64,000 nt of DNA from Methanobacteriota archaeon (lineage in GTDB: Archaea > Halobacteriota > Methanomicrobia > Methanomicrobiales > Methanoculleaceae). The position numbers and the translations under genes are program-made. The notes beneath the pieces are model-generated. The model saw only the letters and a program-made list of their open reading frames with translations. It was not told the origin of the DNA and made no database searches. Below, piece by piece: positions 7,830 to 37,557 of this stretch. The stretch lies in assembly GCA_016841955.1 (NCBI GenBank), contig JAENYE010000001.1, forward strand, positions 1-64,000, in the 5' to 3' direction. Position 1 is the first letter of the stretch; each line of letters begins with the position of its first letter.

Positions 7830-10559
7830 TCAGGAGTTCCCCTTCCGGTAGTAGAGGAACGCCCCCGCCCCCACGATGATGAGGGCAAGCAGGCCGGGGA
7901 TGAGGTGCGCATACGGGAGGTCCGGCACGGCCCCGGGCTGCGGGCCGGTTTCGGCCGCGACCACCTGCGCCGCGCCGCTCCCGGGCACTTCGACAAAGAG
8001 CGCGTATGGGCTGAAGTGCGAGACAACGGTTGTGACGCTCCGGACTCCCTGGTGGACGGTGGTGGGAACCTCCTCCCAGGCGTCCGCCGACCGGTTGTAC
8101 CGCTGCACCACGAGCCCGCCCTGCCCGCTGCTGTAGACGGCATCCCACTGCTCCTCCGTGAAGTTGAACGCCAGGGTCACCGGCGGTGAGAAGGTGGCTC
8201 CCTCCGGCCCGGCGATCCAGGCATACCCGGTAAACGCGTACGCGCCCACGCCGGGCACCGGGGGTACGTCGGCCGGGTCGAGAGGCGCAAGGGTCACCGC
8301 CGCAAGCGGATTCCCGGCGGCATCGACCGCCCTGACGCCCTCCGCAATGGCGAGGCTCGCGATGCCGTCGGAAGAACCGAGCAGGACAACCCGTTTCACG
8401 AGGCCGGTCTCCCCGAGGTGCAGCCGGCCGGGCTCAGCGTCCCCGGGGACGGCGGTCGGCGTCGGGGTCGGGGTGGGGGCGGGTGTCGGCGTGTTCCAAC
8501 CCGGGTTTACCCAGGCAAAGCCGCCGCCCCCTCCTCCTCCTCCGCCGCCACCGCCGCCTGTCGACTTCGGAGTCGGTGTGGTCGTTGCCGGGGCGGGGCG
8601 GACGGATATGTACTCGGTTTTCACCGCGGTGCTGCTCCCGGCGGCGTTCCCTGCGGTCAGGTTGACGGTATAGTTCCCGGCAGCGGCGTAGGTGTGCGAG
8701 GGATGCCGGTCGGTCGAGGTCTTCCCATCACCGAAACTCCAGAGCCAGGAGGAGAGCTCACCGGTGGAAGTATCGGTGAACGTGACCTTGAGAGGCGCCG
8801 TTCCGTTGAGGGGCACGGCATGGAACCCCGCGGTCGGCGGGCCGAAGGTGCGGATTTGCATGGTTTTTGTGGAGTGATCGCTGCCGCCGGAGACTGTCAG
8901 ACTGACGGTATAAGTTCCGGGTTTTTCGAATACGTGGACCGGGTTCGGCACGGCAGAGGTCTTTGTGTCGCCGAAGTTCCAGGACCACGAAACGGGCTTC
9001 CCCGCAGACGCATCCGCAAACCCGACGGTGAGCGGGGCGGCCCCGACGGTCACGTTGGCGGTGAACCCGGCGGTCAGCGGTTCGAGGACCGTGATATAAC
9101 CGGCCCGAACCGTTGTGTTCTCTCCCCCATCTTTTGCTACGGTCAGGGAGACGGTATAGGTGCCGGCGGTGAGGTAGGTGTGCTCCGGGTTCTGCTCGGA
9201 GGAGATCCCGCCGTCACCGAAGTCCCAGAGCCAGGTAGCGGGGCTGTTCGTCGATTCGTCCGTGAACTGCACGACGAGAGGCGCACCACCCGACACCGGC
9301 GCGGCGGAGAAACCGGCGACCGGCGGTTCGGGCAACTCTACGCTAATGAGATCGGTCTTCGTGACGGTATCAGCCCCGAACCGGTTGCTCACCGTGAGCG
9401 AGACGGTGTAGTCTCCCGGTGCCTCGTAGGTGTACTCCGGGTTCCGTAAGGTCGAGGCATTCCCGTCACCGAAGTCCCACTCCCACGATTCCGGGTCGCC
9501 GGTCGACAGGTCGGTGAACCGGACGGTGAACGGCACTCCTCCATCGGTCGGGTCAGCCGAGAACTCCGCCACCGGCAGCGATCCGCCGGCGTAAGTGAAG
9601 GCATAGATGTCCGATCCCTCGTCACGACCGTTCTGCCAGACGACCAGGTCACCGCTGACGGCAGGGTAGAGCTGCTCCTGGCCGGACGAATTAACGGGCA
9701 TTTGGACCTCCTTCCCCAGGGAGAGGTCGCAGATGTAGATGTTCCACACCTCGCTCCGCTTGTCCTCCCAGGCAACGAGTTCCCCATCGATCGCCGGGGA
9801 GACCTGCCAGGCAGGGTCGTCGGTGATCCTCTGCTCTCCACCGGACGGGTTGTCGAGATCGAAGAGGTAGATGTCGGGATCTTCGTTCCGGTAGTCCTCC
9901 CAGACGATCCGGCTCCCCGATATCGCCGGATACGTCTGCCGTACACCGTTCCAGGTGATCCGTTGCTTCTCTTCGGCCAGGATATCGTACACCCAGATGT
10001 CGCCGCCCCCGGTGCTCTCCTCCCAGACGACGTACTCGTCCGAGAGCGCAGGCTTCCACTCGGTTACCGGCGAGCAGGAGAGGAAGGTCTCACTGCCGGT
10101 CTCGATGTCGTGAAGGCAGATATCCACACTCCCTTTCCGGGTATCGTACCAGACGACATGCCTCCCGTGGACTACGGGCAGCCACTGGTCCGCCGGATCG
10201 TCGGCGAGTGCTATCGTGCCCATCAAGCGCCCAAAGAGGTAGATGTCCGGGCTCACGTTTCGGTTGTCCTCCCAGACGATGTAGTCACCCGAGACGGACG
10301 GTCTCGAAGGCGAGGCGGAGTCGCCCGTTATCCGTTCACCGGGACCGTGACTGCTCGCCGAGTAGATGTCCTCATCCCCGTTCCGGCCGTCTTCCCAGAC
10401 GACCACACCGCCGTCGATATCGGGGTGCTCCTGCGATCCGCCGGCGGTACAGAAAAGCACCGTATCCCCCGGAGCCGCTTCCACCGCCAGAACAGGCGGC
10501 ACCAACAGTCCGGCGACGATGACGGTGCAGATTAACATCAGCACGTTATGTTCGGCCAT
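7830..10559 (-). CDS. Large surface protein: TolB-like propeller plus four PKD domains
   Basis: A 909-residue predicted surface protein. Signal peptide at about 1-27. Residues about 35-330 hold seven repeats of the form VVWEDxRNxDxDIY, each a blade of a TolB-like propeller. Four PKD domains follow, each with a W-x-FGDG or similar motif (WEWDFGDG, WLWDFGDG, WSWNFGD, WLWSFGDG) and a YTVxLTV strand. Then come a linker with a run of 13 glycines and Thr-Pro repeats, another beta-rich domain of about 140 residues, and a C-terminal membrane helix ending YYRKGNS. PKD proteins are common on methanogen cell surfaces, where they probably mediate adhesion or envelope structure. It converges with the gene at 6570. 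Confidence 0.85.
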   Translation of the reverse strand: MAEHNVLMLICTVIVAGLLVPPVLAVEAAPGDTVLFCTAGGSQEHPDIDGGVVVWEDGRNGDEDIYSASSHGPGERITGDSASPSRPSVSGDYIVWEDNRNVSPDIYLFGRLMGTIALADDPADQWLPVVHGRHVVWYDTRKGSVDICLHDIETGSETFLSCSPVTEWKPALSDEYVVWEESTGGGDIWVYDILAEEKQRITWNGVRQTYPAISGSRIVWEDYRNEDPDIYLFDLDNPSGGEQRITDDPAWQVSPAIDGELVAWEDKRSEVWNIYICDLSLGKEVQMPVNSSGQEQLYPAVSGDLVVWQNGRDEGSDIYAFTYAGGSLPVAEFSADPTDGGVPFTVRFTDLSTGDPESWEWDFGDGNASTLRNPEYTYEAPGDYTVSLTVSNRFGADTVTKTDLISVELPEPPVAGFSAAPVSGGAPLVVQFTDESTNSPATWLWDFGDGGISSEQNPEHTYLTAGTYTVSLTVAKDGGENTTVRAGYITVLEPLTAGFTANVTVGAAPLTVGFADASAGKPVSWSWNFGDTKTSAVPNPVHVFEKPGTYTVSLTVSGGSDHSTKTMQIRTFGPPTAGFHAVPLNGTAPLKVTFTDTSTGELSSWLWSFGDGKTSTDRHPSHTYAAAGNYTVNLTAGNAAGSSTAVKTEYISVRPAPATTTPTPKSTGGGGGGGGGGGGGFAWVNPGWNTPTPAPTPTPTPTAVPGDAEPGRLHLGETGLVKRVVLLGSSDGIASLAIAEGVRAVDAAGNPLAAVTLAPLDPADVPPVPGVGAYAFTGYAWIAGPEGATFSPPVTLAFNFTEEQWDAVYSSGQGGLVVQRYNRSADAWEEVPTTVHQGVRSVTTVVSHFSPYALFVEVPGSGAAQVVAAETGPQPGAVPDLPYAHLIPGLLALIIVGAGAFLYYRKGNS

Positions 10560-10871: not shown

Positions 10872-11720
10872 TCACGCCCCTGCAAGTTCACGGACCTTCG
10901 CGATATTCCCAATATCGTCCCGCCGCTCGTCCACCGGCGTCTCGCAGATGAGGGGGAGGCTCCGGATAACGGGGTGGCGGAGAATATGCCGGAATCCTTC
11001 CTCCCCGATGGACCCGAGCCCGATATGCTCGTGCCGGTCAAGCCCGCTCCCGAGAGCGCCCTTGCAGTCGTTGAGGTGGACGACCCGCAGGTGTGCAAGG
11101 CCGATCCGGTCGTCGAGCTCCGAAAAGACCGCATCGACCCCCTCCTCGGTCCGGAGGTCGTAGCCGGCGGCGAACGCGTGGCAGGTATCGAAACAGATCC
11201 CGACTCTTCCTTCCGCATCGATCCCGTTCATGATCCGGCAAAGGTCCTCGACGGTCGTCCCCACGCTGTTCTTCTCCCCGGCGGTATTCTCGAGGAGCAG
11301 CATCACGTCGGACTCCCCGGCATCCGCAAACGCCCGGTTTATGGCGGCGATAACCCGTTCCTGCCCCGCCTCTGTTCCGGCACCGCGGTGGTGCCCGAGG
11401 TGGGTCACGAGGTAGGGGACCCCGAGAAGGCCGCACCGCCCGAGCTCCCCGGCGAGTGCCGCGACCGATTTTTCATAGATCTCGGCATCGGGCGAGGCCG
11501 GGTTCGGGAGGTAGGGCATGTGGTCTACGACCGGGCCGAGCCCCGATGCACTCAGTGCCGCCCTGAAGGCTTCGACCGAGCCTAACTCGAGGTCCTTTGC
11601 CCTCCATCCCCGGGGGTTCCGGGAGAAGATCTGAAACGTGTCGCAGCCCCGTTCACGCGCTCTCCCGACCGCGAGGTCGATCGAGCCGGCGATGGAGACG
11701 TGGCATCCCACCAGCACCAT
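10872..11720 (-). CDS. nfo: Endonuclease IV (AP endonuclease)
   Basis: Zn-dependent apurinic/apyrimidinic endonuclease of base-excision repair. The 282-residue product has the AP-endonuclease-2 barrel motifs in order: LLENTAGE, GICFDTCHAFAAGYD and HLND, then GSGLDRHEHIGLGSIG, which supply the metal ligands. The frame is open far upstream, but homology starts at MVLVGCHVSIAGS (11720), preceded by GAGGG about 8 bases away. It lies 25 bp downstream of aksF on the same strand and may be co-transcribed with the coenzyme B cluster, without an obvious functional link. Confidence 0.95.
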   Translation of the reverse strand: MVLVGCHVSIAGSIDLAVGRARERGCDTFQIFSRNPRGWRAKDLELGSVEAFRAALSASGLGPVVDHMPYLPNPASPDAEIYEKSVAALAGELGRCGLLGVPYLVTHLGHHRGAGTEAGQERVIAAINRAFADAGESDVMLLLENTAGEKNSVGTTVEDLCRIMNGIDAEGRVGICFDTCHAFAAGYDLRTEEGVDAVFSELDDRIGLAHLRVVHLNDCKGALGSGLDRHEHIGLGSIGEEGFRHILRHPVIRSLPLICETPVDERRDDIGNIAKVRELAGA

Positions 11721-11745: not shown

Positions 11746-12714
11746 TTAGGCCTTCCCCTGCCCGACCTCGCGGAGCACCGCCGCCCCGAACTCCCGGGTG
11801 CCGGCGGCACCGCCGAGGTCGGGGGTCCGGATGCCCGCGTGAAGCACCCGGTGGACGGCCTCCTCAACGGCCGCCGCCGATGCAGGGTCGCCGAGGTGGG
11901 AGAGCAGCATCGCGGCGCTCCTGATGGCCGCGACGGGGTTTGCAACGTTCTTCCCCGCGATGTCGGGAGCGCTCCCGTGCACGGGCTCAAAGAGGGCGTG
12001 CCGCTCCCCGATGTTGGCGCTCGGGAGCATCCCGAGCCCCCCCACCAGGTAGGCGGCGGCGTCGGAGAGGATGTCCCCGAACATGTTGGTCGTCACGACC
12101 ACGTCGTACCGGTCCGGGTGCATCAGGAGGTCGAGGCAGAGCGCGTCGATGTAGCGGGCCGTGCAGGGAACTCCCGCCCGGGCAGCCTCCTCCGTGCAGA
12201 CCTCGACGAAGAGGCAGTCGGATTTCAGCACGTTCGCCTTGTTGCCGACGGTGAGGTGGCGGCGGGACTTCGCGAGGGTGCAGGCGTACCGGGCGATCCG
12301 CTCGCTCCCCCGCCGGGAGACGACCCGGACGGTGCAGGCCCGGTCGGACTCCGTCCACTCGATGCCGGAGTAGAGCCCCTCGGTGTTCTCCCGCACGATG
12401 ACGACGTCGACCCCCTCGCCCCGGATCGGGCGGACGTTCGCGTAGAGGTCGAGAGCACGGCGGATCTGCACAAGAACGCTCCGGTAGCCGGGGTCCGGCG
12501 GCGTCGTGACGGCCCCGAAGAGGATGGCGTCCGCCGACCCCAGATCGGCCATCGTCTCCTCCCCGCAGGCGCTCCCCGTCCGCTCCCACCGGCCGTATCC
12601 CACCTCGACGTCGAAGAACTCGAAGTCCGGGCGTACGGCTGCGAGGATCTCGCGGGCGACCGGGACGACCTCGCGCCCGATGCCGTCGCCCTCAACGACC
12701 GCTACCTTCGTCAT
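11746..12714 (-). CDS. aksF: Homoisocitrate/isopropylmalate-type dehydrogenase, probably AksF
   Basis: NAD(P)-dependent beta-decarboxylating dehydrogenase, 322 residues. It has the nucleotide-binding start VAVVEGDGIGREVVP, the substrate-arginine region RRALDLYANVRP, and the family signature NMFGDILSDAAAYL followed by PVHGSAPDIAGKNVANP. On sequence alone it could be LeuB (leucine) or AksF (threo-homoisocitrate dehydrogenase of the 2-oxosuberate pathway). AksF is favoured because the neighbouring small aconitase subunit carries the homoaconitase YLRT loop and because aksA lacks the LeuA regulatory domain. The ATG at 12714 overlaps the end of the preceding gene by 23 bp. Confidence 0.85.
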   Translation of the reverse strand: MTKVAVVEGDGIGREVVPVAREILAAVRPDFEFFDVEVGYGRWERTGSACGEETMADLGSADAILFGAVTTPPDPGYRSVLVQIRRALDLYANVRPIRGEGVDVVIVRENTEGLYSGIEWTESDRACTVRVVSRRGSERIARYACTLAKSRRHLTVGNKANVLKSDCLFVEVCTEEAARAGVPCTARYIDALCLDLLMHPDRYDVVVTTNMFGDILSDAAAYLVGGLGMLPSANIGERHALFEPVHGSAPDIAGKNVANPVAAIRSAAMLLSHLGDPASAAAVEEAVHRVLHAGIRTPDLGGAAGTREFGAAVLREVGQGKA

Positions 12715-13519
12715 CCTGTTCCCTCCATGCGGCCGCGACCTGCCGCACCGCCTCTGCAATATCCCACGACGACGCCCCCCAGTGGACTACGGCGCCGAAC
12801 AGGCCGTTCCAGCGCCCGAGACCCGCCCGCTCGCTCCGGCAGCACCGGGCAATGAAAGGCTCGCCCGCCACCGTCTCGAGCGGGCAGATGTTCTCCACCG
12901 CAACCCCTTCCCCGTAGCACTCTCGCAACAGTTCCCGTGCCGTCAGGCACCCCGCAACCCGGTCGCCGGGGCGGAGCGGGTCCGCGTCGACGGTGCGGGG
13001 GAAACCGGCCGCACGGCAGGGGTAGACGTCGGCCCCGATCTCCCTGATATCCCGGACATGGTGCTCGAAGACGACCTCGAGGTCGCCAAAGAGTCCGGTT
13101 CTCTCAAGGTCGGCAAGCGTGGCCGAGAGGTGGGGGCGGGGCGGGGTGATGTCGTAGACGTGGATGCGGAGGAATCCCGAGAGGTCCGGATCGAGCACGA
13201 ACGTGGTCTGCTCGCCATGGCCGGTGAATATGGTGCAGCGGTACCCGGACCGCATCGCCTCCTCTACTAAGAATGTTCGATCCTGAACGTTCACGCGATC
13301 CGGGTAGCGGTAGACATCGTCGCCGCCGGCGAGCACCCGGGTTGAGAGTACTTTTCGCATCAACCCGGTCTCGTTCGGGTCGGTCTCCACCTCGAGGACC
13401 TCCGTGCCTTCGTGGGTCTCCCGGACCAGATAGCGCGAGAGGAAGTAAGCCTTATCGCCGCACGGGGTGCCGTTCGCGGATCCGACAAACTTGCAGTGAG
13501 GGGGGAAGATCACCGGCAC
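12692..13519 (-). CDS. Conserved-looking protein of unknown function inside the aks cluster
   Basis: A 275-residue soluble protein that I cannot assign. It has no signal peptide or membrane segment. It is rich in Cys and His with motif-like stretches: PPHCKFVGSANGTPCGD near the N-terminus, FTGHGEQTTFVLDPDL, HVYDITPPRPHLS, FEHHVRDIREIGADVYPC and VENICPLETVAG. It sits between aksE (10-bp overlap) and aksF (23-bp overlap), so it is translationally embedded in the cluster. That position makes a role in coenzyme B synthesis plausible, for instance threonine attachment or thiol formation, but this is inference from context only. Confidence 0.75.
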   Translation of the reverse strand: MPVIFPPHCKFVGSANGTPCGDKAYFLSRYLVRETHEGTEVLEVETDPNETGLMRKVLSTRVLAGGDDVYRYPDRVNVQDRTFLVEEAMRSGYRCTIFTGHGEQTTFVLDPDLSGFLRIHVYDITPPRPHLSATLADLERTGLFGDLEVVFEHHVRDIREIGADVYPCRAAGFPRTVDADPLRPGDRVAGCLTARELLRECYGEGVAVENICPLETVAGEPFIARCCRSERAGLGRWNGLFGAVVHWGASSWDIAEAVRQVAAAWREQDDEGSGR

Positions 13520-13983
13520 GACCTCCAGTAGGGGACCAGCCCTCCGGCCCGGAGGATGGCGACCATCTTCTCCGAGAGCGGACGGGCGGGGTGCCGCTCC
13601 CCGTCAACCTCCACCCATCCCGCATCGAGGTCGAAGGCGACGTGAGCGCCGTCGGTGCAGGAGACCGGGGCCTCGATCACCGGCAGGCCGACGTTGACGG
13701 CGTTCCGGAAGAATATACGGGCGAAAGACGGGGCGACGACCCCGACCACCCCGGCCTCCCTGAGGGCGACCACCGCCTGCTCCCGCGACGACCCGCACCC
13801 CATGTTCCTCCCGGCGACGATGACCGCGCCCCCAAGACGGCCGGCGAGCGTCGGGTCCAGATCCTCGAAGGCGTGCTCCGCCCAGACCGAGCGGTCCTTC
13901 GTCCGGAGGTAGCGCCCAGCGATGATGATGTCGGTGTCGATATCGTTCCCGAGGCAGATCGCCGGCCCAACTCCCTGCATCAT
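13510..13983 (-). CDS. aksE: Homoaconitase small subunit (swivel domain)
   Basis: Small subunit of an aconitase-family hydro-lyase, 157 residues. It has GNDIDTDIIIAGRYL at the N-terminus and the conserved MGCGSSREQA loop. In methanogens this subunit sets substrate choice: isopropylmalate isomerases have a hydrophobic loop, whereas homoaconitase has YLRT. Residues 25-28 here are YLRT, which supports conversion of homocitrate and its longer homologues to the homoisocitrates in 2-oxosuberate synthesis. The start is the first of two adjacent ATGs and overlaps the aksD stop (ATGA). Confidence 0.9.
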   Translation of the reverse strand: MMQGVGPAICLGNDIDTDIIIAGRYLRTKDRSVWAEHAFEDLDPTLAGRLGGAVIVAGRNMGCGSSREQAVVALREAGVVGVVAPSFARIFFRNAVNVGLPVIEAPVSCTDGAHVAFDLDAGWVEVDGERHPARPLSEKMVAILRAGGLVPYWRSCR

Positions 13984-15191
13984 ACCCCCTCCGGCACGGC
14001 GATTACGCCCGCGAGCGCGCTCACGGCGGCGGTGGCGACCGACGAGAGGTAGATCTCGCCGCCCACGCCCATCCGGTTCCTGAAGTTCCGGTTGGCGGTG
14101 GAGAGGCAGACCTCGCCCTCCCCGAGCACGCCGGCGTGCGCCCCGAGGCACGGCCCGCACCCGGGCGGCGCAACCATGCACCCGGCGTCCACAATATCGG
14201 CAAGGACGCCGGTGGCGATCGCCCGGGTGAGCACCGTCCGCGAGGCGGGGACGACCAGGGTGCGGACAGCGACCTTCCTCCCCCGGACGATGCGGGCGAA
14301 CCGGGCAAGGTCCTCGTAACGGCCGTTCGTGCAGGTCCCGACGAAGACCTGGTCGAGGTGCGTGCCCGCGACCTCCTCGGCCTCGCGGACGGTGTCCACC
14401 CGGTGCGGGACCGCGACGAGGGGCACGATATCGGAGAGATCGATCTCGACGGTCCGTTCGTAGCGGCAGTCCTCCGGCATCTGGGGCGATGCCGCGAGGC
14501 CGTACTCCGCGAGGTAGCGGACGGTGGCCGCATCGGCGTAGAAGATCCCCGCCTTCGCCCCGGTCTCGACCGCCATGTTGGAGAGGGTCAGCCGCCCGTC
14601 CATGGAGAGCCCCGCCGCCCCGTCGCCCGCGAACTCCAGCGCCCGGTAGGTCGCTCCTTCCATCCCGAGTTTCGCGACGTAGGCGAGGGCGACGTCTTTT
14701 GGCTCCGCGGCACAGGAGAGCCTGCCGGAGAGGTTGACCGCGATCGTCTCCGGGACCCGGAACCACGTGGCCCCCGAGGCCCAGACCGCCGCCGTGTCGG
14801 TCGCTCCCATCCCGGTGGCAAACGCGCCGAAGGCGCCGAGGGTGCAGGTATGGGAGTCGGCGCCCACGACCACCATGCCGGGCCGGACGACCCCTTCGCT
14901 CATCACCTGGTGGCAGATCCCCCCTCCGGCGTCCGAGAGTGCTATCCCCGAGGACCGGGCATACCCGCGGAGCTCGGCCTGGAGCGTTGCCGTCGTGCCG
15001 GTGTTCGCCGGGACAATGTGGTCGAAGATCAGGCGCAGGCGCTCGGGATGGGGGAGCCGCTCCACCCCCATCTCCCGGAGCGCCTCCCGGGCGAGGACGC
15101 CGGTCCCGTCATGGGCAAAGGCGATATCGACCTCGCGGTCCACGTATGCCCCCGCCGGTGCGCCGAGGATCCGCTCCGAGAGCGTGCTCAC
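13980..15191 (-). CDS. aksD: Homoaconitase large subunit
   Basis: Large, iron-sulfur subunit of the aconitase-family hydro-lyase partnered with AksE, 403 residues. Cys287 (GTCTNGR) and Cys345/Cys348 (PPGCGPCLG) are the three expected ligands of the [4Fe-4S] cluster. FDHIVPANTGT and GADSHTCTLGAFGAFATGMG are other family signatures. It would be LeuC if it acted in leucine synthesis; the YLRT loop in its partner favours homoaconitase. It starts with GTG overlapping the aksA stop (GTGA), so aksA-aksD-aksE look translationally coupled. Confidence 0.9.
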   Translation of the reverse strand: MSTLSERILGAPAGAYVDREVDIAFAHDGTGVLAREALREMGVERLPHPERLRLIFDHIVPANTGTTATLQAELRGYARSSGIALSDAGGGICHQVMSEGVVRPGMVVVGADSHTCTLGAFGAFATGMGATDTAAVWASGATWFRVPETIAVNLSGRLSCAAEPKDVALAYVAKLGMEGATYRALEFAGDGAAGLSMDGRLTLSNMAVETGAKAGIFYADAATVRYLAEYGLAASPQMPEDCRYERTVEIDLSDIVPLVAVPHRVDTVREAEEVAGTHLDQVFVGTCTNGRYEDLARFARIVRGRKVAVRTLVVPASRTVLTRAIATGVLADIVDAGCMVAPPGCGPCLGAHAGVLGEGEVCLSTANRNFRNRMGVGGEIYLSSVATAAVSALAGVIAVPEGV

Positions 15192-16318
15192 TGGACGATC
15201 CCCTCCTTTGCCTTACGGAGGAGCCCGCAGAGCACCTCGCGGGTTACGGTGCACTTCCCTTCGCTCTTCTGTTTGACCTGATCGAGCACCCACCGCGCCT
15301 CCTCATCAGAGAGGTCGAACCCGTAGGCCTTCGCGACATGCTCAAGCGCCTTTTTCCCCGTATGTTTCCCGAGGATGAACCGCCGTTCGCCGCCCACCAG
15401 CTCCGGGGGGATGTACTCGTAGGTCGAAGGGTCACCAAGGATAGCGGCGATGTGGATCCCGCTCTCGTGGGCGAAGGCGTTCTCGCCGACGACCGGCCGG
15501 GTACGCTCCGGGGCCACGCCTGAGCACCGGGCGACCAGGCTCGAGGTATCCTGCAGGCGGGAGAGGTCGTAGCGGTCGACGCCGCCCTTCATCCGCAGGG
15601 CGACGAGCACCTGCTCGAGCGCCGCGTTCCCGGCACGCTCGCCGATGCCGTTGACGGTGGTGTGGAGCTGGAACGCCCCGGCGGCTGCTGCCGTGATGGT
15701 GTTTGCGGATGCAAACCCGAGGTCGTTGTGGCAGTGGATGCAGAGCGGGAGGGGAGCCGCATCGAGGATCCCCGAGACGACCGCGTGGGTCTCAAGCGGC
15801 GTGAGGCACCCGACCGTATCCGCGAAACTGACGAGATCGGCACCGCACTCGACGCCCCGGGTATACATCTCCACCAGAAACGCCGGGTCGGTCCGCGAGG
15901 CGTCCTCGGCAGCGAACCGGACCTGCACGCCGTGGTCGGTGGCGAACTCCACCATATCGAGGGCGTCCTCAAGCACCTCCCCGCGGGACTTCCGGTACTT
16001 GTGCCGGATGTGGAGGTCCGAGGTCGCGATAAAGATGCTGACCATGTCCACGTCGCAGTCGAGGGCCGCCTCGATGTCGGGCTGCAACGCCCGGGCCAGG
16101 CAGCAGACGCGTGCGTCCAGACCGCTCCCGGCAATGGCGGCGACACATTCCTTCTCCGCCGCCGATACCACCGGGAACCCGGCCTCGATCACCTCCACGC
16201 CGATCTCGTCGAGTGATCGGGCGATCGCCATCTTCTCATCATAAGTAAACGAGACGCCGGGAGTCTGCTCCCCGTCTCGCAGCGTTACATCACAGATCTC
16301 GATATGCCACGGTAACAT
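15188..16318 (-). CDS. aksA: (Homo)n-citrate synthase AksA
   Basis: LeuA/homocitrate-synthase family enzyme that condenses 2-oxoglutarate (and then 2-oxoadipate and 2-oxopimelate) with acetyl-CoA, the chain-lengthening step toward 2-oxosuberate. The 376-residue product has the catalytic ICDVTLRDGEQTPGV, metal-binding HCHND and the second signature NGIGERAGNAALEQV. It lacks the C-terminal allosteric domain of leucine-pathway LeuA (about 500 residues), as AksA does. I use the ATG at 16318 because GGAGG is 9 bases upstream; a GTG three codons earlier is possible but too close to it. It overlaps the TPP-enzyme gene by 29 bp. Confidence 0.88.
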   Translation of the reverse strand: MLPWHIEICDVTLRDGEQTPGVSFTYDEKMAIARSLDEIGVEVIEAGFPVVSAAEKECVAAIAGSGLDARVCCLARALQPDIEAALDCDVDMVSIFIATSDLHIRHKYRKSRGEVLEDALDMVEFATDHGVQVRFAAEDASRTDPAFLVEMYTRGVECGADLVSFADTVGCLTPLETHAVVSGILDAAPLPLCIHCHNDLGFASANTITAAAAGAFQLHTTVNGIGERAGNAALEQVLVALRMKGGVDRYDLSRLQDTSSLVARCSGVAPERTRPVVGENAFAHESGIHIAAILGDPSTYEYIPPELVGGERRFILGKHTGKKALEHVAKAYGFDLSDEEARWVLDQVKQKSEGKCTVTREVLCGLLRKAKEGIVQ

Positions 16319-17546
16319 GTCGTCCACCCTCCGGGCAGGCGCCTTCGATCACCACCGTCCGGGGCCCTCCCTCGCGGGGGGCGAGGGCCCGGCGAAGCGC
16401 CGCGTTGTCGTCTGCGCCGCAGACGACCGGGTTCGCCCAGGCGATGTAGCGAAGTATATCGGGGACGGGGTGACCGCCGGTCATCCCCATCCGGTTGTTC
16501 GCGAGGACGATACAGAGGAGCGGGAGTCGACGCTCGTAGACGTCGATGAGGGCGTTTAGCCCTGAGTGCAGGAGCGCGTAGTCGCCGGTGAGCGCGACGC
16601 CCGTGCCGGTCGCCGCCACGGCAACCGACGAGCCGAGGCCGTAGGTGGCGATGCCGACCCGGTAGGGCGGGTTCATCGCGAGGATTGCGCACCCGGCGTC
16701 GCAGACCGCCCGCATCCCGCGCTCGGAGAGGATGGCAAGCGCCGGGTGGAACGGGCAGTCCCGGCAGAACGTCCGGCAGTAGCCCCTGGAGGAGAACCGT
16801 TCCGGCTCCCCGGCAGGGTCGGGATGGGTGAGCAGCCGGTGCTCCCGGAGGAAGGGGCGGCCGACCTCACGGGTCGGGGCGAGCGCGTCCGGGTCTGCCG
16901 GGGGCGGGTAGACGATGAGGGCACGGCGTTCACCGCCGGAGAGCCGGTTCAGCGGCGAGGACCGCGACCAGGCAAACATCGCCGCGGTCCGGCGTTCTGC
17001 CGCCGCCGCCCGTCCGGCCATCGTGAGCCCCGGGTCCGCGAGGCTCCCCTCCAGGTCGCTCCGGGGAGAGGAGGGGGACGGGACATCCGCGTCCAGGAGG
17101 TCGGGCGTGACCCTGACGATGGCAACGCGGGAGAAGGTCTCCGAAGCCTCGAACGCCGCTTCGACCGCCGTGCCGAGCGTCTCGCCGTCGGGTTCGAGAA
17201 CCGGGACCCGGGCCACCTCGCCGTAGTAGCGGGAGTCCTGCACGACGTCCGATGCGACCGCACACACGTCGTCGCCGACGACGACCACGACGCCTGCCCG
17301 GAGACCCTGAGCGGTAGCGTGCACGAGCGGGTCCGCACAGGCGTTGAGGCCGACGTGCTTGACCACCACGGCGGCCCTCCGCCCGGAAAGCGAGTCGCCG
17401 AGAGCGTACTCGAGCGCCACCTTCTCGTTTACGGTGATCACGGCCCCGGCCCGGGCGGCAAGCCCCGATACCGGGTAGCCGGGGACTGTGTAGCAGCGGT
17501 CGGCAGACCGGAGGATGGCCAGAGCGAGTGCCTCGGTGCCCTTCAT
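16290..17546 (-). CDS. IorA-like TPP enzyme without ferredoxin domain; candidate 2-oxosuberate decarboxylase
   Basis: A 418-residue thiamine-diphosphate enzyme related to the alpha subunit of indolepyruvate:ferredoxin oxidoreductase. The N-terminal pyrimidine domain has VNEKVALEYALGDSLSG and VKHVGLNACADPL (residues 39-73). The C-terminal PP domain has the TPP motif GD(321-322)-x27-NN(350-351). A CX3CX2C group lies at 257-264. Unlike IorA (about 600 residues) it stops after the PP domain, has no ferredoxin module, and no iorB is nearby. This suggests a non-oxidative 2-oxoacid decarboxylase. Lying directly upstream of aksA-aksD-aksE, it is a candidate for 2-oxosuberate decarboxylase (inference). 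It begins at an ATGA overlap with the radical SAM gene. Confidence 0.8.
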   Translation of the reverse strand: MKGTEALALAILRSADRCYTVPGYPVSGLAARAGAVITVNEKVALEYALGDSLSGRRAAVVVKHVGLNACADPLVHATAQGLRAGVVVVVGDDVCAVASDVVQDSRYYGEVARVPVLEPDGETLGTAVEAAFEASETFSRVAIVRVTPDLLDADVPSPSSPRSDLEGSLADPGLTMAGRAAAAERRTAAMFAWSRSSPLNRLSGGERRALIVYPPPADPDALAPTREVGRPFLREHRLLTHPDPAGEPERFSSRGYCRTFCRDCPFHPALAILSERGMRAVCDAGCAILAMNPPYRVGIATYGLGSSVAVAATGTGVALTGDYALLHSGLNALIDVYERRLPLLCIVLANNRMGMTGGHPVPDILRYIAWANPVVCGADDNAALRRALAPREGGPRTVVIEGACPEGGRHVTVAYRDL

Positions 17547-18514
17547 GTGTCCCTCCCCGGCACCAGGTCGCACCCGGTGCACGCCGCACACATCGTCAGT
17601 GCCCGGCGGGGGTCGAGCCCGGCCAGGCGGAGGATACGCTCGTGGATCCCGCAGAGCCTGATCAGCCGTTCGGCGGACGGGCGGGGCCGTCCGGCGAGAG
17701 ACGCCGCCGGGGTGAGCGGGCGGAGAACAGGGATAACCCCGGTCGCGGCGAGGTCTGCCATGACCCGCTCCAGGTCTTCGTCGGTCTCCCCGAGGCCGAC
17801 GATGACGTTCGAGTAGACCCTGTCCCGCCCGAAGAGCGCCACGGAGGACGAGAGCGCCTCCCAGACCGCGTTCCACGCAAGATCGGGGCACATCTCAGCA
17901 AAGAGCGCCTCCGTCGCCGCCTCGATGTTGAATTTCACTTCCACGACGCCGAGGGCACGGAGCCGGGCCGGGGTTTGTGGTCCCGGGTAGATCGAGACCC
18001 CGATGGGGAGGCCGAACGGCAGGAGCGCCGCCACGACGTCGAGGACGTACGCCTCCTCCTCCTCGATCGAGGAGGCGACACCGCTCGTGATCGCGATGGC
18101 ATCGCTCCGGTCGGCCACGTTCCCGACCATCCGGACGATCTCTTCGATCTCTTTCCGCCGGCCGGGAAGGCCCGGCACCGGGCAGTAGCGGCAGTGGAAG
18201 ATGCACGTCCCGCTGACAGTGATGTAGGCCTGGCGGGGGCAGTGGAGGGCGGCGGGCTCCAGACGGCCGGAGACCACATCGCCGTCGATGAAGAGGTCCG
18301 CCCCGCCTCCTCCCCGGTGGACGACCTCGATGGGGCTTGCCTTGCCGATACCGGCCCGGACCCGCCGGCCACCGCCGACGGAGAAGAAGAGCGAGCCGGA
18401 GGTCCCGGCCGAGGGGCCGGCGGCGGAACGGGATACGTACGGCTCTGCAGGTTCGCCTGAGAGGCGAACCGAACCAGCCTCAAGCAGCCGGGCCTTTAGC
18501 CGATTCCATTCCAT
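17543..18514 (-). CDS. Radical SAM protein with second C-terminal Cys cluster
   Basis: Radical SAM protein of 323 residues. The CX3CX2C motif binding the SAM-cleaving [4Fe-4S] cluster is at C104-C108-C111 (CIFHCRYC), after an unusual N-terminal region of about 100 residues. A second CX2CX2C group (C309, C312, C315) close to the C-terminus could hold an auxiliary iron-sulfur cluster or bind substrate. The specific reaction is unknown. It overlaps the TiaS-like gene upstream by 19 bp and the TPP enzyme downstream by 4 bp, so it is an integral member of the aks cluster. Possible roles include modification or sulfur insertion in coenzyme B synthesis, which is speculative. Confidence 0.85.
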   Translation of the reverse strand: MEWNRLKARLLEAGSVRLSGEPAEPYVSRSAAGPSAGTSGSLFFSVGGGRRVRAGIGKASPIEVVHRGGGGADLFIDGDVVSGRLEPAALHCPRQAYITVSGTCIFHCRYCPVPGLPGRRKEIEEIVRMVGNVADRSDAIAITSGVASSIEEEEAYVLDVVAALLPFGLPIGVSIYPGPQTPARLRALGVVEVKFNIEAATEALFAEMCPDLAWNAVWEALSSSVALFGRDRVYSNVIVGLGETDEDLERVMADLAATGVIPVLRPLTPAASLAGRPRPSAERLIRLCGIHERILRLAGLDPRRALTMCAACTGCDLVPGRDT

Positions 18515-19389
18515 AACGCCAGCGCCTCCTCATACCGCGTGGAGAACGGGATCGCCGCAACCGCCCCGATCGCGCCCCGGCCGTCCATGATGACGGAGAG
18601 CCGCCGGTCGTCGAGGGCGGCAAGGTCGTCGGCCGAGACCTCGCCCCGTTTCACGCGCCCGCCGAACTCCTCGAGCGGCGACGGGTCGAACCCGCGCCAG
18701 ACCGCCATCCCGGTCTCCTCCGAGAGCGTGTACTCCTCCAGGTAGTCGCGGTAGTGCCGGACCAGTCCAACGGGATCGGAGGTGGCGAACTCGCAGGCGA
18801 TGGCGACGCAGTTCTTGGTCCGGTAGGGGACGGGATAGAGCTGCACGATGGTGTGGGAGAGGTAGCGGGAACGGTCGTCCTCGACGGCCCGTGCGATGTT
18901 GTGGGCCAGCGTCCAGGTGGCGCCCTCTTCCGGGGTATCGGTGTCGTCGACCCCGACGATCACTCGCTCACGCCGGGGGAGCCAGATCGTCGATCCTGCG
19001 AGGCGGCCCCCTCCGGCAGGATCGCTCTCGTGGCGGGCGACGCCCGCGGCCCCGGCACGGCAGATGGATGCCCCCACGCCCCCGCCGCCGAGGCCCCGGT
19101 AGGTGACGGCGATCTCGTCTCCTTCGACGGCGACACCGGCTATCCCCGCCGGAAAGACCGAACCCTCAAGCGCGAGGTCGGCGCTGCCGGTCGAAAGAAG
19201 GTAGCGGTTGGTCGCCCCCACGGTGCGGACGGCGCGGACGAGCGGGCTCTGCGCATAGTGGCGCTTCACCCACATCGCACCGCCGGTGCAGTCGAAGAAC
19301 TCGATGAGCTCCACCTGCCCGGCGCTATCGTCGGCCACCGCCACGATCTGTGGATACCGTATCGTATACGGATCAGAGAGTCTCTCCAT
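18496..19389 (-). CDS. TiaS-like DDTD-motif protein, probably methanogenesis marker 11 family (copy 1)
   Basis: A 297-residue protein with VIVGVDDTDTPEEGATW (residues 144-160). The GxDDTD core is the ATP/metal-binding motif of TiaS, the tRNA-Ile2 agmatidine synthase, whose kinase-like domain phosphorylates its target. I believe it belongs to the methanogen-specific marker protein 11 family, of unknown function. It lacks the OB-fold and Zn-ribbon tRNA-binding parts of TiaS. It is a tandem paralogue of the next gene. The ATG at 19389 was chosen over an in-frame TTG at 19407 because homology and spacing to a GAGG fit better. It overlaps its neighbours on both sides. Confidence 0.78.
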   Translation of the reverse strand: MERLSDPYTIRYPQIVAVADDSAGQVELIEFFDCTGGAMWVKRHYAQSPLVRAVRTVGATNRYLLSTGSADLALEGSVFPAGIAGVAVEGDEIAVTYRGLGGGGVGASICRAGAAGVARHESDPAGGGRLAGSTIWLPRRERVIVGVDDTDTPEEGATWTLAHNIARAVEDDRSRYLSHTIVQLYPVPYRTKNCVAIACEFATSDPVGLVRHYRDYLEEYTLSEETGMAVWRGFDPSPLEEFGGRVKRGEVSADDLAALDDRRLSVIMDGRGAIGAVAAIPFSTRYEEALALWNGIG

Positions 19390-20329
19390 ACAGCCCAGCC
19401 GCCTCAACGCCTTTGTTCCCCCAGAGAACGGCGCCCAGTGCTCCTATCCGCCCTTTCCGTGCGTTCGAGTCGATGAACCGGACGCCCATCCGGGCGGCCT
19501 CCGCCTCCGCGTCATCGACCGTCAGGATCTCGGTCTTGACCCGTTTTAAGTAGGGGGACTCCTCCGCAAACGCAATCCCCCGGTGGACGGCGATACCGGT
19601 GTCGTTGCTGACCGCTTCCGACTCGATGAAGTCGCGGACGTACTCGAGGAGCGCATCCACCCTCCCGGGGCGGACCGCGAAGTTCAGGGCGGACCCGACG
19701 CAGTTGGTGGTCTTCTTCGGGACCGCGGGATTCAGCTGCACGAGGCGCATGTCCAGGTACTCGACCCCGGGGATCGTGCAGGCCTCGGCGCATTGGAGCG
19801 CAAGCACCCACGTGGCGCCTTCCTCGCGGGTGTCGGTGTCGTCGATCCCGATCGTCACCTTCTCATACAGCGGTGATGCGATCCGGACCCGGCAGACCCG
19901 GGCGCCGCCGATCTTGAGATCGTCTTCGGAGGGGTACTCGGCCCGGGTCACCCCCGGCGCCTGGGTCAGGCAGGCGGCGACGCCGACGCCCGCTCCCGCG
20001 ATCCCGGACCAGGTCGTCACCACTTCGTCTCCGGCGACCTCGACCCCCTCGAGCGCCTGCCCGCCGATCTCCTGGCCGGCAGCCCCGAACTTCGCCGGGG
20101 ATACACCCAGCCGGGCGAGCATCGTCATCGTCGTGCCCTCGACGTGGCAGGACTGGATTGCACCTTTCGCCCGCACCCGGTTCGCCGCATCCCACTCGAT
20201 GGTCCCTCGGGCCCGGCAATGCTCGCGGATCTCCGCAAGACCGGCGTTCTGGTCGACCATGGCGAGATACTTCATCGAGAACAACGGCCCGAACCGGGCC
20301 CTGACTTCGTCGGGCGTGAGCGTAATCAT
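19373..20329 (-). CDS. TiaS-like DDTD-motif protein, methanogenesis marker 11-like (copy 2)
   Basis: A 318-residue paralogue of the preceding protein and the first gene of the cluster. The signature is VTIGIDDTDTREEGATW (158-174), followed by conserved QLNPAVPKKTTNCVGSAL; copy 1 has QLYPVPYRTKNCVAIAC at the same place. The N-terminal half, about 150 residues, differs from TiaS. A phosphotransferase-type reaction is the best guess from the motif; the substrate is unknown. GGTGA lies 4 bases before the ATG. Upstream on the minus strand are a TTAAATACC TATA-like box and two direct repeats. Confidence 0.78.
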   Translation of the reverse strand: MITLTPDEVRARFGPLFSMKYLAMVDQNAGLAEIREHCRARGTIEWDAANRVRAKGAIQSCHVEGTTMTMLARLGVSPAKFGAAGQEIGGQALEGVEVAGDEVVTTWSGIAGAGVGVAACLTQAPGVTRAEYPSEDDLKIGGARVCRVRIASPLYEKVTIGIDDTDTREEGATWVLALQCAEACTIPGVEYLDMRLVQLNPAVPKKTTNCVGSALNFAVRPGRVDALLEYVRDFIESEAVSNDTGIAVHRGIAFAEESPYLKRVKTEILTVDDAEAEAARMGVRFIDSNARKGRIGALGAVLWGNKGVEAAGLYGETL

Positions 20330-20340
20330 GATGTCACCGG

Positions 20341-20378
20341 AATTATCGTTAACAAAATTATCGTTGATAACGGTATTT
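20341..20378 (-). promoter_or_regulatory. Predicted promoter with direct-repeat operator for the aks cluster
   Basis: A 10-bp direct repeat, AATTATCGTT on the plus strand, occurs at 20341-20350 and 20356-20365, one and a half helical turns apart. On the minus strand it lies between a TATA-like TTAAATACC (around 20371-20379) and the ATG at 20329, where a repressor site would be expected. This is prediction from sequence only. Confidence 0.45.
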
Positions 20379-20546
20379 AAGAGGATCGATCAGGATAAGA
20401 GGGGCGGCGGGGACCGGGCTCCGGCGAAGGGGTGGCGGGTGAGGGAGGCTCTTATACGTGCATGGGTCCCTCGCCGCAGGCGTGGGTAACGATGATGCAC
20501 GGGGGGCGGTTCTTTCATGAGGGAGGGAAGCCCGAATCGAGGGAAA

Positions 20547-35850: not shown

Positions 35851-37557
35851 ATGGCAAAGATTGAGAGAACCCAGAAGCTGTTCCTGCAAGCCCTCAAGGA
35901 GAAGTTCCAGGGACAGGATGTCCAGTCCGAAACGGCTGAGTACTACAAGTTCAACGGTTACCACCAATCCCCCCGCAAGGAGGAGTTCGTAAAGGCGAGC
36001 CGTGCCGTCGAGATGGACCGCGGCATCTCCATGTACAACCCCGTACGCTGCCACCTGGGCGGTATCCCGCTCGGCCAGCGCCAGCTGATGACCTACGAGG
36101 TCTCCGGCACCGGCGTCTTCGTGGAGGGTGACGACCTGCACTTCGTCAACAACTCTGCGATGCAGCAGATGTGGGACGACATCAGGAGGACGGTCATCGT
36201 CAACATGGACCTCGCCCACCAGACCCTGCAGAAGCGTCTGGGCAAGGAAGTCACCCCCGAGACGATCAACGAGTACCTCCACGTGCTGAACCACGCCATG
36301 CCCGGCGCGGCCGTCGTTCAGGAGCACATGGTCGAGACCCACCCCGGCCTCGTCGACGACTGTTACGTCAAGGTCTTCACCGGCGACCAGGAACTCGCCG
36401 ACGACCTCGAGCCCCAGTTCGTCCTCGACGTCGAGAAGCTCTTCCCCGCGAAGCAGGCCGAGGCGCTCTCCGCTGCCGTAGGAAAGTCCCTCTGGCAGGC
36501 GATCCACATCCCGACCACGGTCTCCCGGACCTGTGACGGTGGAACGACCTCCCGGTGGTCTGCGATGCAGATCGGTATGTCCTTCATCGCCGCCTACCGC
36601 ATGTGCGCCGGCGAAGCGGCCGTCGCCGACCTCTCCTACGCCGCGAAGCACGCAGGCGTCATCCAGATGGCGTCCCACCTGCCCGCCCGGCGTGCCCGTG
36701 GCCCGAACGAGCCCGGTGGCATCATGTTCGGTGTCTTCTCCGATATCATCCAGGCGAACCGGAAGTACCCCAACGACCCCGCAAAGGCCTCCCTTGAGGT
36801 CGTCGGCGCCGGAACCATGCTGTTCGACCAGATCTGGCTCGGCTCCTACATGTCCGGCGGTGTCGGCTTCACGCAGTACGCGACCGCGGCCTACACCGAC
36901 AACATCCTCGACGAGTTCACCTACTACGGCATGGACTACGCCAAGGACAAGTACAAGGTCGACTGGAAGAACCCGAGCCCGGGCGACAAGGTCAAGCCGA
37001 CCCAGGAGATCGTCAACGATCTCGCCACCGAGGTCACCCTCAACGCCATGGAGCAGTACGAGCAGTACCCGACCATGATGGAGGACCACTTCGGCGGGTC
37101 CCAGCGTGCCGGTGTCATCGCCGCCGCGTCCGGTCTCACGACCTCCATCACGACCGGCAACTCCAACGCCGGTCTGAATGCCTGGTACCTCTCCATGCTC
37201 CTGCACAAGGACGGATGGTCGCGTCTCGGCTTCTTCGGCTACGACCTGCAGGACCAGTGCGGTTCCGCGAACTCGCTCTCCATGGTGTCCGACCGTGGTC
37301 TGATGGGAGAACTGCGTGGCCCGAACTACCCGAACTACGCGATGAACGTCGGTCACCAGGGCGAGTACGCCGCCATCGTCGGCAGTTCTCACTACGGACG
37401 CGGCGACGCGTTCTGCTACAGCCCGCTGGTGAAGGTCTGCTTCGCCGACCCGAGCCTGAAGTTCGACTTCGCCGAGCCCCGCCGCGAGTTCGCGAAGGGT
37501 GCAATCCGCGAGTTCATGCCCGCCGGCGAGCGTTCGCTCATCATTCCGGCCCGGTAA
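35851..37557 (+). CDS. mcrA: Methyl-coenzyme M reductase alpha subunit
   Basis: Catalytic alpha subunit, 568 residues. The sites of the known post-translational modifications are all present by alignment to the Methanothermobacter enzyme: His267 (YAAKHAGV; N-methyl-His), Arg281 ([13 protein letters not shown]; methyl-Arg), Gln418 (SQRAGV; methyl-Gln), Gly463 ([11 protein letters not shown]; thioglycine) and Cys470 (methyl-Cys). Whether each is modified here is not visible. It ends with the family tail [13 protein letters not shown]9 tract follows the stop. Confidence 0.98.

Follow-up and report, generated by a model that had tools for sequence, protein, structure and literature searches.

Nine overlapping genes on the minus strand of a Methanoculleus-like archaeal genome (positions 11746-20329 of the 64,000-nucleotide stretch analysed here, called the window) very probably serve the biosynthesis of coenzyme B, the electron donor of the methane-forming step. 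The best explanation is that they form a single coenzyme B operon in which steps can be tentatively assigned to individual genes, a reading to which we give a probability of about two in three. This proposal is based on gene content, conserved linkage, homologies, a phyletic profile and a series of losses; the roles of the enzymes are predicted.

A sequence-only reading of this DNA had held that the steps after 2-oxosuberate lack assigned enzymes, and the accessible part of a 2025 paper likewise describes the coenzyme B route as still unknown (PMC12068725). For every type of chemistry still missing, the cluster offers a candidate gene, so the gap becomes testable gene by gene. One of these is related to a coenzyme M gene of bacteria whose function is unclear, and natural loss mutants are pointed out. 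If the enzymes are confirmed, they may be targets for cutting methane output.

The gene cluster and its conserved linkage

The sequence-only reading described nine same-strand genes that overlap or nearly touch over 8.6 kb. With the starts checked, neighbouring genes do overlap, by 4 to about 38 bases, and no free stretch lies between them. Families were assigned by Pfam and NCBIfam scans. These place the 275-residue protein, previously without a family, in Pfam DUF7714, and the pair of proteins with a DDTD motif in the methanogenesis marker protein 11 family, with a TiaS_TCKD domain. In order of transcription, the features are:

20374..20380 (-): TATA-box-like TTAAATA, 45-51 bases before the M11b ATG, seen by eye and without a statistic
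19373..20329 (-): M11b, second paralogue in the marker-11 family, with a DDTD motif and a kinase domain of TiaS type
18496..19407 (-): M11a, methanogenesis marker protein 11, TIGR03280; alternative ATG at 19389
17543..18514 (-): radical S-adenosylmethionine (SAM) protein; Pfam Radical_SAM, lipoyl/biotin-synthase-like, with an extra C-terminal CX2CX2C
16290..17567 (-): thiamine pyrophosphate (TPP) enzyme; TPP_enzyme_C, IorA-like without the ferredoxin domain; likely start ATG 17546
15188..16327 (-): AksA, homocitrate synthase type; HMGL-like and HCS_D2, without the LeuA regulatory domain
13980..15191 (-): AksD, homoaconitase large subunit type; Pfam Aconitase
13510..13983 (-): AksE, homoaconitase small subunit type; Aconitase_C (LeuD type), YLRT at residues 25-28
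12692..13513 (-): DUF7714 (PF24830, 7.2e-85), XcbA-like five-cysteine protein; its GTG start at 13513 agrees with relatives, which begin MIFP
11746..12714 (-): AksF, homoisocitrate dehydrogenase type; Iso_dh

By homology to characterised enzymes, AksA, AksDE and AksF would convert 2-oxoglutarate to 2-oxosuberate. They belong to the same families as the methanogen enzymes of this route, with a YLRT-type small subunit and a truncated AksA; here all four stand in one operon with five more genes. The two diagnostic features named in the sequence-only reading are borne out. Translation from ATG 13983 places YLRT at residues 25-28 of AksE, a loop that we take, with that reading, to be a mark of methanogen homoaconitase, and Pfam finds only HMGL-like and HCS_D2 in the 379 residues of AksA.

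Linkage was scored in the 80 best of 433 M11a relatives, all of them Methanomicrobiales or so placed by the rank of their neighbours, and downstream neighbours were counted wherever the contig was long enough. The closest named relatives among these 80 are Methanoculleus and other Methanomicrobiales records. M11a is linked to the radical SAM gene in 73 of 74 testable loci (the sole miss is L126), and the chain continues with radical SAM to TPP enzyme (66/66), TPP enzyme to AksA (65/65), AksA to AksD (64/64), AksD to AksE (57/60), AksE to DUF7714 (58/58) and DUF7714 to AksF (56/56). The three AksD-AksE misses (L085, L087, L151) have AksE in frames that overlap AksD beyond the limit of the linkage rule. 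M11b lies upstream in 40 of 71 loci. Linkage of this kind far exceeds chance.

Other families keep parts of the arrangement. M11a and the TPP enzyme are adjacent in all nine loci fetched from families f8, which we take to be Methanosarcinaceae, and f21. Two f7 loci have M11a without the other genes. Three loci of f14, a family that appears Methanocellaceae-like, hold M11a, TPP enzyme and AksADEF together. Two of the three have the radical SAM gene, and two have DUF7714 inside the stretch retrieved; in the remaining one, G019, DUF7714 begins at the end of that stretch. In loci that were picked around DUF7714, the gene stands beside AksE or AksF in 7/7 from f8, 2/2 from f21, 2/2 from f7 and in one further f14 locus (1/1). 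The sequence-only reading had allowed that the linkage might be confined to this genome. The neighbourhood comparison instead finds linkage to the aks genes conserved, with gene order kept in the Methanomicrobiales sampled and partly in these four other families.

Candidate enzymes for the late steps

The interspersed genes had been proposed as candidates for the steps after 2-oxosuberate. By linkage, profile and homology this stands for the TPP enzyme, the radical SAM protein and M11a, which are good candidates, and for DUF7714; M11b is a weak one.

The TPP enzyme would decarboxylate 2-oxosuberate non-oxidatively to 7-oxoheptanoate, and we regard this prediction as probably correct. Its CxxC and DxGC motifs are conserved, with the motif residues invariant or nearly so. 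An analogous role, from 2-oxoacid to aldehyde, is played in coenzyme M synthesis by the sulfopyruvate decarboxylase ComDE, a likeness of chemistry only. In the accessible part of its source, the published scheme passes through a semialdehyde, printed as suberate semialdehyde (PMC3087415).

The aldehyde of 7-oxoheptanoate would then be turned into an omega-thiol, for which DUF7714 and the radical SAM protein are the candidates, perhaps with a COG1900-type sulfurtransferase encoded outside the cluster. Sequence comparison reveals a new relationship: DUF7714 shares homology with XcbA, a family encoded in the coenzyme M operons of bacteria. All 16 aligned DUF7714 members match NCBIfam CoM_XcbA_fam (NF052538; best 6.9e-22). 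An hhalign comparison with bacterial XcbA, made from shallow profiles of 16 and 4 sequences, gives a probability of 99.6% and E 1.7e-23 over 235 columns, and one BLASTP pair shows 28% identity (E 4e-17). The window protein itself scores 49.3 bits in NF052538, below the curated cut-off of 150, with 4.1e-13 in a direct hmmscan. A search of the whole genome with NF052538 gave no match at 0.001 despite that value; the direct scans are trusted.

A tblastn search of 72,556 plasmid records with the window protein found nine records, five of which match the query over most of its length: Methylocystis iwaonis (1e-9, 3e-10), Mycolicibacterium chubuense NBB4 (6e-7, 0.03) and Nocardioides JS614 (0.003). 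The remaining four matches are short and weak. In the four plasmids examined of the five, the XcbA gene lies directly between phosphosulfolactate synthase and the coenzyme M lyase and pyridoxal phosphate enzyme genes. The relative in Xanthobacter Py2 lies before its phosphosulfolactate synthase; this gene (L078:6929-7860, CP000782, pXAUT01) is absent from the PLSDB gene table and is read in two overlapping frames. Nothing relevant was seen in the first 50 kb of pXAUT01, and DUF7714 had no relative among the viral contigs scanned.

Every one of 121 sequences, 117 from archaea and 4 from bacteria, keeps the same five invariant cysteines (Cys167, 190, 211, 225 and 226), and the bacterial and archaeal proteins form separate clades in the tree with 100/100 support. 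The operons of both families are linked to a thiol cofactor; the bacterial genes flank phosphosulfolactate synthase, whereas the archaeal ones flank aks genes. A structure model of DUF7714 (pLDDT 89.9) had no Foldseek match in the PDB at E 0.001 or better, and its best VIA-align result, Z 7.5 with a root-mean-square deviation of 2.5 over 81 residues, falls inside the stated background range. In the literature searched, mostly open-access, no paper named DUF7714/PF24830 or TIGR03280/methanogenesis marker protein 11.

According to Wu 2022, XcbA reportedly does the final reduction in a five-step bacterial coenzyme M pathway. The accessible parts of two papers treat XcbA as a functional analogue of sulfoacetaldehyde dehydrogenase (PMC11507031) and mention a conserved gene at the same operon position, xcbF1, of unknown function (PMC8727900); by position, that gene corresponds to XcbA here. 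The homology points to thiol formation. We lean slightly towards a role of DUF7714 in that step, which it fits and which it may share with coenzyme M. A broader proposal is held more tentatively, at somewhat worse than even odds: DUF7714/XcbA would form the thiol of both cofactors of methyl-coenzyme M reductase, that of coenzyme M in bacteria and, in class II methanogens, that of coenzyme B and perhaps of coenzyme M too, while the operon of aks, TPP, radical SAM and M11a genes would hold most of the missing coenzyme B enzymes and be lost stepwise where coenzyme B or its precursors are taken up.

The radical SAM protein resembles sulfur-inserting enzymes and is a candidate for the sulfur step; its part in thiol formation is judged an even bet. 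Its best PDB relatives are lipoyl synthase 5exi (E 1.6e-9) and a biotin synthase (9.3e-8). With these and LipS2 it has in common the radical SAM domain, the CX3CX2C motif and an extra cysteine cluster. Here, however, the extra cysteines form a C-terminal CX2CX2C, and the named models are far below cut-off (56.4 bits against 270 for LipS2, NF053743). Each of the three CX3CX2C positions is kept in 148 of 149 sequences, and the cysteines including the C-terminal cluster in 147-148.

Among 16 distant loci, from f10 (presumably ANME-1-like), f12 (presumably Methanoliparia-like) and similar genomes, the radical SAM gene abuts COG1900a (L-ASST, PF01837) in six: L189, L190, L194, L195, L201 and L202. 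Five of these are from f10 and one from f12, and both gene orders occur. In four of the 16 (L192, L194, L198, L200) no more than 500 bases of contig remain on one side of the radical SAM gene. The genome of the window has two COG1900 genes, both outside the cluster. According to the accessible part of the paper, the COG1900 members L-ASST and MMP16 convert aldehydes to thiols, their double deletion was unobtainable even with coenzyme M and methionine, and the authors suspect a role in coenzyme B (PMC12068725).

M11a, presumably an ATP-dependent enzyme of TiaS type, would join the acid to threonine or phosphorylate the product. It scores 337.1 bits in TIGR03280, above the cut-off of 255.8, and its GxDDTD motif is invariant or nearly so across 143 sequences. 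Its C-terminal half resembles the TCKD of TiaS, the tRNA-Ile2 agmatidine synthetase, in sequence and fold (Foldseek 2.2e-7), with DDTD kept. M11a is nevertheless shorter, 303 residues against over 400, and the significant structure matches span about 150 columns only. TiaS activates a carbonyl with ATP and then accepts an amine, which makes threonine ligation as plausible as phosphorylation for M11a. That it is a ligase or kinase at the threonine/phosphate end of coenzyme B is rather likely.

M11b falls below the same TIGR03280 cut-off (190.5 bits) and is a paralogue, with a TiaS_TCKD match of 2.2e-16. Little ties it to synthesis, and a role there is doubtful. A third, distant marker-11 paralogue lies outside the cluster (G000:C9:65195-66022, with relatives L214-L217); it also occurs in G075, whose operon has no M11b.

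Distribution and natural losses

The phyletic profile covers 147 genomes of the phylum that are at least 85% complete. McrA was matched in 91 of them, one match (G108, 19.9 bits) being probably spurious. The window has a canonical mcrA at 35872-37551, about 15 kb from the cluster, and the same genome holds a second McrA gene at C3:278104-279783. DUF7714 occurs in 60 genomes, all of them with McrA. M11a is over cut-off in 70 (64 with McrA), and all 70 have the radical SAM family, which at our own threshold of 200 bits or more is present in 95 genomes, 87 with McrA, and so in 87 of the 91 McrA genomes. Fisher tests, which ignore relatedness, give 4e-13 or lower. The TPP enzyme reaches at least 480 bits in 48 genomes, all among the 60 with DUF7714, and is in two pieces in some further Methanomicrobiales. 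G123 and G138 have intermediate scores (349.5 and 342.7 bits) in frames of about 510 residues; proteins of IorA length begin at 311.6 bits.

Six genomes (G024, G032, G039, G121, G138, G046) have M11a and the radical SAM protein but no McrA. The concern in the sequence-only reading that the flanking families occur widely outside coenzyme B producers therefore holds in part: the profile finds them mostly confined to McrA genomes, DUF7714 entirely so, with these six M11a genomes outside. Linked M11a-radical SAM pairs in McrA-less genomes were seen at L232, L233, L236, L237 and L070, and some of these genomes are presumably Geoglobus or Ferroglobus (g39/g33). A LeuD loop of YYHL/YFHL type was considered as a marker of coenzyme B makers in Archaeoglobi and rejected, since it occurs with and without M11a.

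The f10 genomes have the radical SAM protein, no DUF7714 and no M11a over cut-off, G067 reaching 233.7 bits. Two ANME-1-like genomes, G005 and G051, have McrA but neither DUF7714 nor M11a over cut-off; their best LeuD is without YLRT, and second LeuD matches, below cut-off, are outside this reading. Among control genomes, TIGR03280 was matched in four including M. jannaschii, and 2 of 14 are over cut-off.

Losses can be followed within the Methanomicrobiales, where DUF7714 is present in 133 of 135 genomes at least 90% complete. Twenty loci were read, chosen for genera g11 and g13 (the latter presumably Methanocorpusculum), for low scores or for variety, and 15 genomes were searched with a five-protein query. 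For AksA, AksE and AksF the judgement covers the loci themselves, apart from a genome-wide LeuD/AksE search in G125. In G125 and G163, M11b, M11a, radical SAM and DUF7714 form a closed locus, and AksD and the short TPP enzyme were not found; G125 has a single LeuC and a single LeuD, neither with YLRT. In G199, G160 and G159 (90-92% complete) AksD, TPP enzyme, radical SAM and M11a were not found; DUF7714 and M11b are retained, side by side in G199 and G160 and on separate contigs in G159. This retention in genomes without aks genes was not foreseen by the sequence-only reading. The operon is split in G153 and G156, with TPP enzyme and AksD together elsewhere. The locus of G176 stops at a contig break, and G215 is without all five proteins, perhaps through a gap.

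The losses follow an order consistent with a pathway, with the Aks proteins and TPP enzyme upstream and radical SAM and M11a next. Judging by its genus mates, its size of 1.7 Mb and its missing LeuC (AksD was likewise unmatched), G199 is probably Methanomicrobium mobile. In the accessible part of one paper, the needs of this species include coenzyme B and isovalerate; the same text cites Kuhner 1991 for replacement of its growth factor by the coenzyme B molecule, and also calls the nature of the factor unknown (PMC10658910). Compared with G198, the DUF7714 of G199 is 49% identical, against 73-84% in two intact genus mates, and its M11b 79%, against 85-88%. Methanocorpusculum-like genomes show no clear drift of DUF7714.

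Alternative explanations and neighbouring genes

The Aks proteins are LeuABCD homologues, and the cluster might be a leucine or other branched-chain set carrying passenger genes, as the sequence-only reading had considered should a second YLRT set exist. This is barely credible and was rejected. The genome has two LeuC-type and two LeuD-type matches; among the latter, YLRT is found in the cluster AksE only, and the other LeuD has the loop FLTI and adjoins its own LeuC on contig C8. The cluster is also conservedly linked to families that mostly track McrA. The TPP enzyme might instead be an oxidative 2-oxoacid:ferredoxin oxidoreductase that uses IorB in trans, converting 2-oxosuberate into an activated acyl compound. 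IorA is the nearest named family (IOR_alpha, TIGR03336, 2.6e-37) and shares the TPP domains and the conserved CxxC and DxGC motifs. However, the score of 128.5 bits is well short of the cut-off of 650.9, at 425 residues the protein is shorter than the IorA-like one of this genome (a 593-residue frame), its Pfam matches include no ferredoxin domain, and the cluster holds no partner subunit. These points and the semialdehyde of the published scheme make oxidation improbable.

Two further alternatives concern the thiol and ligation candidates. The radical SAM protein and M11a might make a product other than coenzyme B in McrA archaea and in some McrA-less Archaeoglobi and others, merely sharing the operon. 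Their adjacency in the McrA-less G032, G024, G121, G138 and G046 is in keeping with this, as is the radical SAM protein of the f10 genomes. Yet the family is present in nearly all McrA genomes, the operon linkage to aks genes is strict in Methanomicrobiales, and in the loss series both proteins vanish only where AksD and TPP enzyme are also gone, so we consider a separate product fairly unlikely. DUF7714, with M11b, might serve to make coenzyme M or to salvage coenzyme B, and not to synthesise coenzyme B de novo, its linkage reflecting co-regulated thiol cofactors or one enzyme for both. The bacterial coenzyme M operons, the retention in G199, G160 and G159 and the near-constant presence in Methanomicrobiales favour this. 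It is still given well under even odds, as DUF7714 adjoins AksE or AksF in all five family groups that have it, and in G199 it has drifted far more, as if freed from its main task.

Several points qualify or weigh against the reading as a single coenzyme B operon. The curated NCBI models are missed by AksD (426.9 bits, HacA_Meth cut-off 550), AksE (151, HacB2_Meth cut-off 230) and AksF (322.5, homoisocitrate dehydrogenase cut-off 540), which differs from known systems and leaves the AksADEF assignment dependent on loop, pairing and context. The six McrA-less genomes are a real exception, and the M11a-radical SAM pair need not be confined to coenzyme B. With 31 of 91 McrA genomes lacking DUF7714 and 27 lacking M11a over cut-off, neither is universal there, and class I methanogens are outside the neighbourhood sample. 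Retention of DUF7714 and M11b after the other losses may mean that they also serve coenzyme M, take part in salvage or are decaying slowly. Finally, the single thiol step has two contending genes, and no obvious pair of genes stands out for ligation and phosphorylation.

No tandem repeats were found, and a promoter scan was not used as its models describe bacterial sites. Close 3' of AksF and on the same strand lies nfo (Deoxyribonuclease IV, 10872-11708); in L050, where AksF is gone, an nfo-like frame follows DUF7714 (by eye). Positions 7830-10559 of the window encode a likely surface protein of 909 residues, which shows (by eye) repeats of propeller-like and PKD-like type and a membrane segment at its C-terminus.

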